64,000 nt of DNA from the NCBI RefSeq assembly GCF_004802635.2, contig NZ_CP046052.1:620001-684000 (forward strand), read 5' to 3'. This DNA comes from Methylocystis heyeri (lineage in GTDB: Bacteria > Pseudomonadota > Alphaproteobacteria > Rhizobiales > Beijerinckiaceae). How positions within the stretch are numbered: position 1 is the stretch's first letter; every line of letters begins with the position of its first letter. The translations under genes and the position numbers were made by a program. Below, one piece after another: positions 2,746-41,469 of the stretch. The notes under the pieces are model-generated. The model had not been told where the DNA came from and searched no databases. It was given only the letters and a program-made list of their open reading frames with translations.

Positions 2746-2830
2746 CTTGGTTTTGCGCAGGCGCGATTAACGGGGCGGCGACTCCTGCCGGCTAGTCTGG
2801 GGCTGAGTTTTCACGCCGGAGTTTTGCATC

Positions 2831-4150
2831 GTGTCTATCCTGAAGGCCGCCCGTTTCGCGCTTGCGGCGGCGCTCAGCCTGTCGGCCCCTTTCGCTTCGG
2901 CGCAGCAGCTTCGCCCCGAGGCCTCCTCGCACTTCGGCGTGGCGCCGCTTCATTCCTTTTCGGGCGGGGCCGACGGGGGCGGCAAAATCCTCAACCTGGC
3001 GGTCGATAGCGACGGCGCGCTTTACGGGACGACATCGGGGGGCGGCGCCAGCAATTTGGGCGTCGTATTCAAACTGACTCCGCCGGAACCCGGCAAAAGC
3101 AAATGGACCGAGACCATCCTTTACACTTTTTCCGGGGCCGATGGGGCGATTCCCATCTTTACCCCGACCATCAACTCCCAGGGAGCGCTCTACGGCGCCA
3201 CGACTTCGGGAGGGTCCGGCAACTACGGCGTCGCATTCAAGCTCACGCCGCCGGCGCCGCCCGCGACACAGTGGGTCGAGACCAAGATGGTGGACTTCAA
3301 TTTTTCCATCGGCGAAAATCCCCAAGGCGCCTTCGTAATGGACAGCAGCGGCGCGCTTTATGGGGGGGCCTATTCAGGCGGGGCCTCATACCGCGGGACG
3401 GTGTACAAGCTCACGCCGCCGGGGTCCGGCGTGGCACTTTATAATTTCACGGGCGGAGCCGACGGAGGCCAGCCGGGACTTACCTTCGCCATGGATGCGA
3501 ACCACGCGCTTTACGGCGCAGCCGGCATCGGCGGGGCGAACAGATACGGGGTCGTGTTCAAGCTGACCCCGCCCGGCGCAAATTGCACGCCCACGGCGCC
3601 CAATCTCTGGTGCGAGACCGTGCTCTACAACTTCGCCGGCGGGGCCGACGGCGGGTCTCCTGTCGGCGTCATCATGGATGCCCACGGCGCGCTCTATGGC
3701 GCGACTTTCCTCGGCGGCGCCGGCGGCTACGGCCAGGTGTTCAAACTGACGCCGCCGACCGCTCCCGCCACGCAATGGACCAAAACGGAGCTTTACAGCT
3801 TCACTGGAGGCGCCGATGGCGCCAATCCCTACAGCGCTCCCGTGCTCCTCGGCGGCGCCCTTTATGGCGCTGTTCCATATGGGGGAGGCTGCTCCTTGGA
3901 CCCCAACTGCGGCTCCATCTATCGGCTGAATCCGCCGGTTCCGCCCTCCACCCAATGGACCGAGGAAACGCTCTGGACCTTCACCGGCGGCATGGACGGC
4001 GCGCGCCCATACGCGGGTCTGACCATCGTCCCGGTCAATTTCGGACTCGGCGTCTACGGCGCCACAGCCAGCCAGGTCTTTGCCTTGCAGTGCCTGCCGC
4101 GGGCGCGGGAGGTCCTTGGCGGCGCCCTGCAAACGGCCTGCGCGCGTTAG
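2831..4150 (+). CDS. GloVer repeat protein, secreted (third paralogue)
   Basis: 439 residues with a GTG start at 2831 preceded by CCGGAG. The signal peptide (MSILKAARFALAAALSLSAP then FASAQ) closely resembles that of the preceding paralogue. About eight GloVer repeats follow, again with one Cys-pair repeat (ANCTPTAPNLWCE) and the shared C-terminal LQC...GGALQTACAR tail. Repeat order and tail match the second paralogue closely, so this pair is probably the most recent duplication. The gene converges on modC with only 18 nt between the stop codons. The function is unknown; secretion is inferred. Confidence 0.88.
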   Translation: MSILKAARFALAAALSLSAPFASAQQLRPEASSHFGVAPLHSFSGGADGGGKILNLAVDSDGALYGTTSGGGASNLGVVFKLTPPEPGKSKWTETILYTFSGADGAIPIFTPTINSQGALYGATTSGGSGNYGVAFKLTPPAPPATQWVETKMVDFNFSIGENPQGAFVMDSSGALYGGAYSGGASYRGTVYKLTPPGSGVALYNFTGGADGGQPGLTFAMDANHALYGAAGIGGANRYGVVFKLTPPGANCTPTAPNLWCETVLYNFAGGADGGSPVGVIMDAHGALYGATFLGGAGGYGQVFKLTPPTAPATQWTKTELYSFTGGADGANPYSAPVLLGGALYGAVPYGGGCSLDPNCGSIYRLNPPVPPSTQWTEETLWTFTGGMDGARPYAGLTIVPVNFGLGVYGATASQVFALQCLPRAREVLGGALQTACAR

Positions 4151-4168
4151 GGCTGCCGGATCGTCCTC

Positions 4169-5287
4169 TCAGCCTCCGCCATTGGCGCTGCCGGTGCGGC
4201 CCGGCGCGAAGGTGACCGCCTTGATCTGGGCGAACACGTCCATTCTGGGCGCAAACTCCAGCCGCTCCCAGGAAAGTCGGGTGACCCGCGCCAAAATGCG
4301 CGCGCCGGCGCCTTCCGGCCCCAAGCCGAGCACGGCCGTCATACGGTTTTCCTCGGAGGGCGCGACGCTCAGAATCCGCGCCGGAAGGACATTGAGGATC
4401 GTGCTCCTCGGCAGTAGCTCCCGCGCGAGGCTGACATCGGTCGCGAGGATACGGATGCGGCGAATTTCTCCTGCTGCGACAGGGGGAGAGGGAACCTCGA
4501 AACTGCCGCCGTCGGCCCGCAGAGAGGCGACGCCGTAGTTCGCATCATAGCGTTCCACTTTCGCGTTGAGGCTCACCGCCGCGGATCGGCTCTGCATCAG
4601 CGGCAGGTCGGGATCGCTCTGCAATCTCGCGAGCGGCCCCGAGGCGACCACGCGGCCGCCCTTCATCAGAACGAGGCGATCGGCGAGGCGCTCGACCTCC
4701 TCCATGTCGTGGCTCACATAGATGACGGGCATGGAGAGTTCTTCGTGCAGCCGCTCGAGGAAAGGAAGAATCTCGTCCTTGGTCATGCGGTCGAGCGCGG
4801 AGAGCGGCTCGTCCATCAGCATCAGTCTCGGCTGCGAAAGCAGCGCGCGGCCGATGGCGACGCGCTGGCGTTCGCCGCCGGAAAGATGCGACGGCGCCCG
4901 ATCCAGCAGCCCGGCGAGCCCGAGCAGGTCGACGACGTCGTCGAAACGGAGACTCTCGCCGTTATTGGGCTTGCGAGGCGCGCCGTAGGTCAGGTTCCGC
5001 CTCACCGACAGATGGGGAAAAAGGCTCGCTTCCTGAAACACATAGCCGATAGGCCGCTGGTGGGTGGGGCGGAAATAGCCGTCGTCCTGCCAGGTTTCGC
5101 CGTCGATGGCGATGAAGCCGTCGTCGAGGCGATTGAGGCCGGCGATGCAGCGCAGCAGCATGGTCTTGCCGCAGCCGGAATGGCCGAACAGCGCAGTGAC
5201 GCCGCGCGCCGGCGTCTCGAAAGCCGCATTGAGCTCGAATCGGCCCGCAAAGCCGCGGAACTTCGCCCGGATCGCCCCCCGGGTCAT
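4169..5287 (-). CDS. modC: Molybdate ABC transporter ATP-binding protein ModC
   Basis: 372 residues, the usual ModC length. It powers molybdate uptake through ModB. Walker A is GHSGCGKT (about residues 35-42), the ABC signature is [16 protein letters not shown], Walker B is [12 protein letters not shown], and the switch histidine lies in VIYVSHD. The C-terminal 80-90 residues form the molybdate-binding Mop/TOBE domain expected of ModC. The start ATG at 5287 overlaps the modB stop by 4 nt (ATGA), implying translational coupling. The frame stays open much further upstream, but that stretch is only a shadow of modB. Last gene of the modABC operon. Confidence 0.96.
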
Positions 5288-40876: not shown

Positions 40877-40902
40877 CTCGTTCGAAGCCGCGCCTTTGTT
40901 AC
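40877..40902 (-). promoter_or_regulatory. Possible SigF-type promoter of sigF-nrsF
   Basis: On the minus strand GTAACA (40902-40897), 16 nt, then CGAG (40880-40877). It differs from GTAACC-N16-CGAA at one base in each box. Transcription would begin at or just inside the annotated start codon, which would favour a leaderless message or the internal ATG. It suggests autoregulation. Confidence 0.45.
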
Positions 40903-40945: not shown

Positions 40946-40971
40946 GTAACGGCCGGGCGCGGCTGCGCGAA
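40946..40971 (+). promoter_or_regulatory. SigF-type promoter of the bufferin gene
   Basis: GTAACG (40946-40951), exactly 16 nt, CGAA (40968-40971). This matches the Caulobacter/Bradyrhizobium SigF consensus GTAACC-N16-CGAA at all but one base. The bufA2 start lies about 78 nt downstream. Confidence 0.8.
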
Positions 40972-41049
40972 GAGGTTGTTGCGCCTCGTCGGCCAAGGCC
41001 GGATCGGGGCGCTCTTCGATTGTGGAAGAAATTTCTCGGGAGAAAGACA

Positions 41050-41310
41050 ATGAAAGTGAGAATAGTTTCGGGCGCCGCGGCGGCCAGCGCGGCCATCGCC
41101 TTGGCTTTGAGCGGCATGGCGGCGACTCCCGCCGCCGCCAAGAAGGCGGCCAAGACCGTCCATTGCACGGGCGGCAACGCCTGCAAGGGAATGAGCGCCT
41201 GCAAGAGCGCCAACAACAGCTGCAAAGGACAGAACTCCTGCAAGGGGCAGGGGTGGACGCGGGCGAAATCGAAGGCCGCCTGCGAAAAGTCTGGCGGCGC
41301 CGAAGGTTGA
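41050..41310 (+). CDS. bufA2: BufA2 family periplasmic bufferin-type metallophore precursor
   Basis: 86 residues. The signal peptide (1-30, ATPAAA) is followed by a mature peptide with six cysteines at 39, 45, 51, 58, 64 and 79, mostly in the motif C-K-G/S (NACKGMSACKSANNSCKGQ, NSCKGQGW). This is the BufA2 bufferin pattern. Bufferins are ribosomal peptides whose cysteines can be modified by a DUF692 (MNIO) enzyme BufB with BufC and which buffer copper and other metals in the periplasm. No bufB/bufC/bufD gene accompanies it. GGGAGA precedes the ATG at 41050. A SigF promoter upstream and a terminator downstream show it is monocistronic. Confidence 0.88.
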   Translation: MKVRIVSGAAAASAAIALALSGMAATPAAAKKAAKTVHCTGGNACKGMSACKSANNSCKGQNSCKGQGWTRAKSKAACEKSGGAEG

Positions 41311-41315
41311 TCGAC

Positions 41316-41347
41316 AGCCGGGCGGGCGCGCGAAAGTCCGCCCGGCT
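41316..41347 (+). terminator. Terminator after bufA2
   Basis: Arms AGCCGGGCGG and CCGCCCGGCT (10 bp, loop of 12) lie 5 nt after the stop and are followed by CTTCTATT. It separates bufA2 from the glycosylphosphotransferase gene. Confidence 0.7.
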
Positions 41348-41469
41348 CTTCTATTGGAAAAACTGGGGTTCTTCGAGAGTAATCAAATCTTTACCCGGTG
41401 TGGGCGATCGTTGCCCCGTTCCGGCGCGAGGGGCGCCGTTCGCCATTTGCGGGTTAAAGTCGAAGAGCC

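Follow-up and report, generated by a model that had tools for sequence, protein, structure and literature searches.

A lone bufA2 gene of Methylocystis heyeri, divergent from a sigF-nrsF pair, encodes a BufA2 bufferin precursor, and exactly one MNIO (DUF692, PF05114) gene and one DUF2063 gene are found in the genome, in an operon about 3.7 Mb from the window, by which we mean the whole 64-kb stretch of DNA that was analysed. We consider it moderately probable that the gene is a SigF-induced bufferin whose own enzymes were lost and which is modified in trans. The arrangement is real and mostly explained; its parts are known and the wiring is a variant.

The lone gene and its promoter

The product of bufA2 scores 86.6 bits against the NCBIfam BufA2 model NF050166 (cut-off 60), and a Pfam profile search gave no family above cut-off. 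The precursor consists of a leader of about residues 1-30 and a six-cysteine core, and all six cysteines and the Cys-Lys motifs are retained in an alignment with nine relatives. The N-terminus has the typical n/h/AxA layout by inspection and resembles bufferin leaders. The original prediction was of an 86-residue, BufA2-like product with a signal peptide and six cysteines, and its assignment to the BufA2 family is supported. The gene shares the six-Cys core and the Cys-Lys motifs, along with a leader that looks Sec-like, with the Buf2 (BufA2) bufferins, or Cys-Lys captophorins, of the available texts of PMC12452194 and PMC12668002. Compared with ten relatives, the core has a dN/dS of 0.19-0.50 and the gene is thus constrained, which speaks for a working product, although the constraint is weaker than in a pair from intact operons (L040 and L048, core dN 0.05 and dS 1.10).

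A GTAACG-N16-CGAA promoter had been predicted upstream of the gene, and the box is found at exactly those positions (Table 1). The predicted hairpin is real as well: the stretch 41305-41365 folds with -28.5 kcal/mol (z -2.9; 2 of 200 shuffles equally low), with a tail 3' of the stem, UCUUCUAUU, that is not a clean T run. Box and terminator-like stem flank bufA2, in support of the proposed single-gene layout. On the opposite strand a second box, absent from the original prediction, faces sigF, and the divergent sigF-nrsF pair has in this way a candidate promoter of its own.

Table 1. Features of the sigF-nrsF and bufA2 locus, with positions in the window
Feature	Position	Strand	Basis or remark
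NrsF-family anti-sigma factor, 212 aa	39670..40308	-	PF06532 176.5 bits, cut-off 26.8
ECF sigma factor (called sigF), 189 aa	40305..40874	-	NF009165 267.3 bits, cut-off 198; Sigma70_r2 and r4_2
SigF-type box GTAACA-N16-CGAG, candidate promoter of sigF-nrsF	40877..40902	-	pattern match, recurs in G007
SigF-type box GTAACG-N16-CGAA, candidate promoter of bufA2	40946..40971	+	ends 78 nt 5' of ATG
Candidate ribosome-binding site GGGAG	41038..41042	+	sequence inspection
bufA2 (clade II)	41050..41310	+	NF050166 match, alignment, tree
Terminator-like hairpin	41316..41347	+	12-bp stem, weak U tail

Both boxes are one or two letters off the Caulobacter SigF consensus, GTAACC-N16-CGAA, as printed in PMC3511200. 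The pattern GTAAC-N17-CGA[AG] occurs 23 times in the genome, against 57 times for a reversed control, and is thus not enriched genome-wide, for which reason a single match is weak evidence. A pair of matches with the right orientation within a single 175-bp gap would be rare, by a hand estimate 2e-7 with the genome rate and 1e-6 with that of the control. Both boxes recur in a second Methylocystis genome, G007, where the one facing sigF lies at L100 3147-3172 on the minus strand. A chance promoter at bufA2 is rejected on a comparison of the two clades of the gene (see below), since a box is present upstream of 29 of the 30 clade II genes, ending 53-81 nt 5' of the start, and upstream of only 2 of 35 clade I genes. 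The genome has 21 further box sites beyond the sigF-bufA2 gap, which did not lead to a wider SigF regulon; 14 fall inside a mechanical ORF of at least 150 codons and 7 do not, and a few of these 7 have an ORF downstream, such as L007 and L012, where long ORFs begin 18 and 129 nt away.

Profile matches confirm a sigma factor and an NrsF-family protein, as expected from the suggestion that SigF-NrsF is the likely regulator pair. The sigma factor is called SigF because of its NrsF neighbour and the box, not by comparison with Caulobacter SigF, and the neighbour misses the cut-off of the NCBIfam NrsF equivalog (85.0 vs 300 bits) and is therefore assigned to the NrsF family and not to the named equivalog.

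The enzymes and the leader of the precursor

It had also been claimed that the gene has no modifying enzymes. This is true of the window, in which profile searches of the genome detected no MNIO gene, no DUF2063 gene and no second BufA2 above cut-off, and the gene's own cluster contains neither partner; it nevertheless stays a member of the BufA2/Buf2 group, because the available text of PMC12452194 includes precursor genes that stand alone among the bufferins. It is not true of the organism, and a genome devoid of such enzymes is rejected by the whole-genome profile searches, which place the single MNIO and DUF2063 genes at C1:4.375-4.378 Mb in an operon of a gene for a 73-aa secreted protein followed by bufA2, bufB and bufC. 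The original prediction had set against itself a bufBC operon elsewhere with its own bufA and no modification of this peptide, and the first half of that, the operon, exists. The genome has two BufA2 precursors above cut-off, one adjoining the enzymes and one alone beside sigF-nrsF. A Buf1 precursor was considered and rejected, as the whole-genome search gave no match to one.

Residues 247-251 of BufB read ERDDN, in a comparison from which rows with identical first 60 letters were dropped and which covers the 15 commonest motifs among the matches listed; the motif of the solved MNIO 3bww is ERDFN. Cys-Lys MNIOs such as BufB2 are reported to have an Asp after the catalytic Asp (PMC12668002, available text), and we infer that the second Asp of ERDDN corresponds to it. 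Upstream of the enzyme operon no SigF box was found, the best score being the background median and 51% of 2000 random stretches scoring as high, so that precursor and enzyme need not be co-induced. The equivalent operon of G007 has a SigF box.

The window leader aligns with that of the operon BufA2 with a score of 62 (1 of 2000 shuffles as high), with that of the 73-aa protein with 71, and with those of six His/Cys-rich precursors from MNIO operons with 86-99; three Buf1 leaders score 29-38, and 12 Sec-like N-termini of the M. heyeri genome, a small set, at most 28. Preliminary data in PMC12452194 make the signal peptide a part of the recognition of Buf1 by BufB-BufC. In eight of eight examined Methylocystis BufB2-type MNIO operons without BufA2 (L152-L159), one or two secreted precursors lie upstream of bufB, His/Cys-rich, about 75-93 aa long, with at least six Cys, CHHK-like motifs and a BufA2-like leader. 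Some MNIO operons open with a small secreted C-x4/5-C protein (L001 2710-2931, minus strand; similar in L119, L125, L146, L152 and L156-L159), and the L001 protein has the leader in common and may be another substrate.

In a set of 101 genomes (M. heyeri and 100 relatives), the BufA2 model found 73 genes above cut-off in 39 genomes, counting a row of G017 with a stop codon in the match, and only weaker matches in ten more. A full-length BufB2-type MNIO, with at least 57% identity to M. heyeri BufB, is present in all 39; the 40th genome with this enzyme is G069, in which a fragment of BufA2 stands at the end of a contig, and the other 61 have neither above the thresholds. The co-occurrence is dominated by one genus, Methylocystis, which supplies 32 of the 39 genomes. 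The search can miss members, as the model was silent in the genome of the control C. vibrioides, which has a Buf2 according to PMC12452194. Outside this set, an MNIO is present in 17 of 19 genomes reached via other BufA2 loci, and no match was found in the remaining two, G114 and G116 (MAG records L219 and L226, of 2.4 and 2.1 Mb).

Two explanations had originally been offered, an unmodified peptide and modification in trans, and the latter is the better supported, because of the BufB2-type MNIO in 39 of 39 BufA2 genomes, the leader in common and the retained Cys-Lys motifs. The former, in which the peptide is exported as it is and acts under SigF as a simple Cys-rich thiol buffer for metals, while the MNIO serves its operon partners only, seems to us possible but rather unlikely. 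It is an alternative named in the available text of PMC12452194 where a genome combines several precursors with a single MNIO pair, and it would suit the boxless enzyme operon, a bufB that is truncated in a sister lineage (L101) and the two MNIO-less MAG records. It fits poorly, however, with a BufA2 that never occurs above cut-off without a BufB2-type MNIO in the 101 genomes, and with the retained leader. Modification in trans has its own difficulties, since the leaders in common may reflect common descent only and the BufB of the genome is paired with a clade I BufA2, not with the clade II copy of the window; the boxless operon, the two genomes without MNIO, the weaker constraint and a long branch in the tree also count against it.

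Lone and operon copies in Methylocystis and beyond

A lone BufA2 is the rule in Methylocystis: only 12 of the 64 genes adjoin an intact BufB2-type MNIO and the other 52 stand away from it, with a few genes perhaps miscounted as some contigs are short, and with the partial MNIO matches in G009, G033 and G076 left out as not intact. No copy adjoins the intact enzyme in 21 of the 32 Methylocystis genomes with BufA2, and still the enzyme is present in all 32.

The BufA2 tree (73 rows, the duplicate L047, equal to L100, being dropped) is built on 88 kept columns and leaves many forks unresolved for that reason. Clade I (support 100/98) holds 35 Methylocystis rows, among them the operon copy of the M. 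heyeri genome, and clade II (30 rows, 97/98) holds the window gene, 28 other Methylocystis genes and one gene of the same family (G047). The sisters of the window gene (96/85) are five genes of intact bufABC operons, adjoining bufB and bufC in G004 (twice), G014, G021 and G031, and a gene of G009 beside a truncated bufB; the window branch itself is long (0.3). Clade II operons of Methylocystis (L106, L107, L108, L130 and L132) resemble the window locus in having a sister BufA2 with a box of SigF type about as far from the gene, but they retain the bufB and bufC that the window gene is without. The simplest reading would be that the window lineage lost bufBC.

In G007 (L100) a lone bufA2 is likewise divergent from sigF-nrsF with both boxes present, and the window's next gene was not found in the 6-kb stretch of this locus. 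In G009 (L101) bufA2, a partial bufB, sigF and nrsF stand in a row; this bufB (2767-3351), between bufA2 and sigF, matches residues 1-201 only. The syntenic locus of G033 (L102) matches in sigF-nrsF (79 and 70% identity) and in the next gene (75%), with no bufA2 in between, an absence that rests on a tblastn map, the two-sequence DNA alignment having placed the right flank poorly. Another locus of G033 (L109 2216-3846) consists of a bufA2 with five Cys, a bufB without match for about 120 internal residues, and bufC. No bufA2 was found within the 5-kb stretch of L103 in G034, where an ORF like a cation diffusion facilitator by eye (3552-4853, plus strand) is divergent from the same type of sigF-nrsF.

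Outside the genus, the loci named here are the best 80 of 554 confirmed ones and therefore close to the query. An MNIO match lies within 3.5 kb at 60 of these 80 and at none of the other 20, some of which are at contig ends. Three of the best 80 have a boxed lone bufA2 with a divergent sigF-nrsF, namely L198 (an Alphaproteobacteria MAG) with both boxes, and L209 (a Rhodospirillales MAG) and L234 (Reyranella soli), where the pattern fits the bufA2 box only. These three genomes, together with G007 and the 52 Methylocystis copies that stand apart, led us to reject a unique arrangement. The genomes of L198, L209 and L234 have 1, 3 and 4 MNIO matches above cut-off, respectively. In the latter two, one of the MNIO genes has at least three BufA2 genes ahead of it, the leaders of which resemble that of the lone copy (in each of five comparisons no more than 1 of 2000 shuffles reached the score). 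At L248 and L250, Reyranella-type genomes show this arrangement of at least three BufA2 paralogues ahead of a single MNIO. A box lies 73 nt upstream of a bufA2-bufB locus in a Caulobacter sp. (L227), and in that genus a Buf2 operon may thus already be under SigF. Another Buf2-SigF link is seen in Novosphingobium and Sphingomonas (L190, L193, L229 and L232), where Buf1 and Buf2 genes, an MNIO and sigF-nrsF occur together.

This recurrence could be taken further, with sigF-nrsF and a lone Buf2 as a self-contained alphaproteobacterial copper-stress switch, the bufferin of which has no enzymes of its own and is either unmodified or a feedback element that resets NrsF; we find this decidedly improbable. 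Still less probable is a bufferin that is mainly a feedback part, binding periplasmic metal and so removing the signal on the NrsF cysteines, which would make sigF-nrsF and bufA2 a self-limiting loop. The linkage holds in different neighbourhoods (the window, L100 of G007, L101 of G009, L198, L209 and L234), and C129 and C179 of NrsF are invariant in five of five aligned sequences; a Caulobacter Cys pair, taken to correspond although not aligned, is needed to hold the SigF targets at basal level (PMC3511200, available text). A simple target gene predicts the linkage equally well, however, and G033 and G034 retain the same type of sigF-nrsF without an adjoining bufA2, while other box sites in the genome, e.g. 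L007 and L012, have long ORFs downstream. Just as doubtful is an evolutionary leftover with a decaying or rarely expressed precursor after loss of the enzymes, which the long branch, the G033 locus without bufA2 and the altered bufA2-bufB copies of G009 and G033 might suggest, but six cysteines, leader, box and terminator stem are all present and the core dN/dS is 0.19-0.50.

A proposed copper response with borrowed enzymes

Modification in trans, the explanation we prefer, would work as follows. By analogy with Caulobacter, a metal signal, probably copper, would act on the membrane anti-sigma factor NrsF and free SigF, which would then transcribe its own operon and the divergent lone bufA2, itself a presumed descendant of a bufA2-bufB-bufC operon that lost its enzymes. 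The precursor, carrying the leader common to precursors of Methylocystis BufB2-type MNIOs, would be finished by the single BufB-BufC pair from the distant, boxless operon, turning core Cys into a Cu-binding heterocycle before Sec export, and the product would be a periplasmic copper buffer. That the distant enzymes finish the peptide, and that it binds copper, is in our opinion probable. The host is likely a methanotroph, judged from three AMO/PmoA-family matches in the genome, and methanotrophs are a group of high copper demand.

Copper induces the SigF regulon of Caulobacter, in which a sigF::Tn5 mutant shows sensitivity to copper (PMC8224329). The window locus is like that regulon, as described in the available texts of PMC3511200 and PMC8224329, in box type, sigF-nrsF operon, bufferin targets (predicted in M. 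heyeri) and the NrsF Cys pair. The printed Caulobacter targets are, however, precursor-MNIO-DUF2063 operons and a sulfoxide reductase gene, whereas in M. heyeri a solitary Buf2 gene is the neighbour of sigF and no box precedes the enzyme operon. A literature search, of few wordings and with little reach into subscription journals, found no paper linking bufferins with SigF or MNIO with Methylocystis.

Bufferin genes that stand alone have already been described, as have genomes in which precursors outnumber MNIOs (PMC12452194). According to the available text of that survey, genes for sigma factors and NrsF occur in Buf1 and not in Buf2 clusters, and the locus described here ties SigF-NrsF to a Buf2 gene. 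The survey also leaves open if several bufferins can be modified by the same MNIO-partner pair or if some are left unmodified, and the genome of M. heyeri, with a single MNIO, a single DUF2063 gene, two BufA2 above cut-off and no match to Buf1, is a clean test of whether one enzyme can serve several bufferins.
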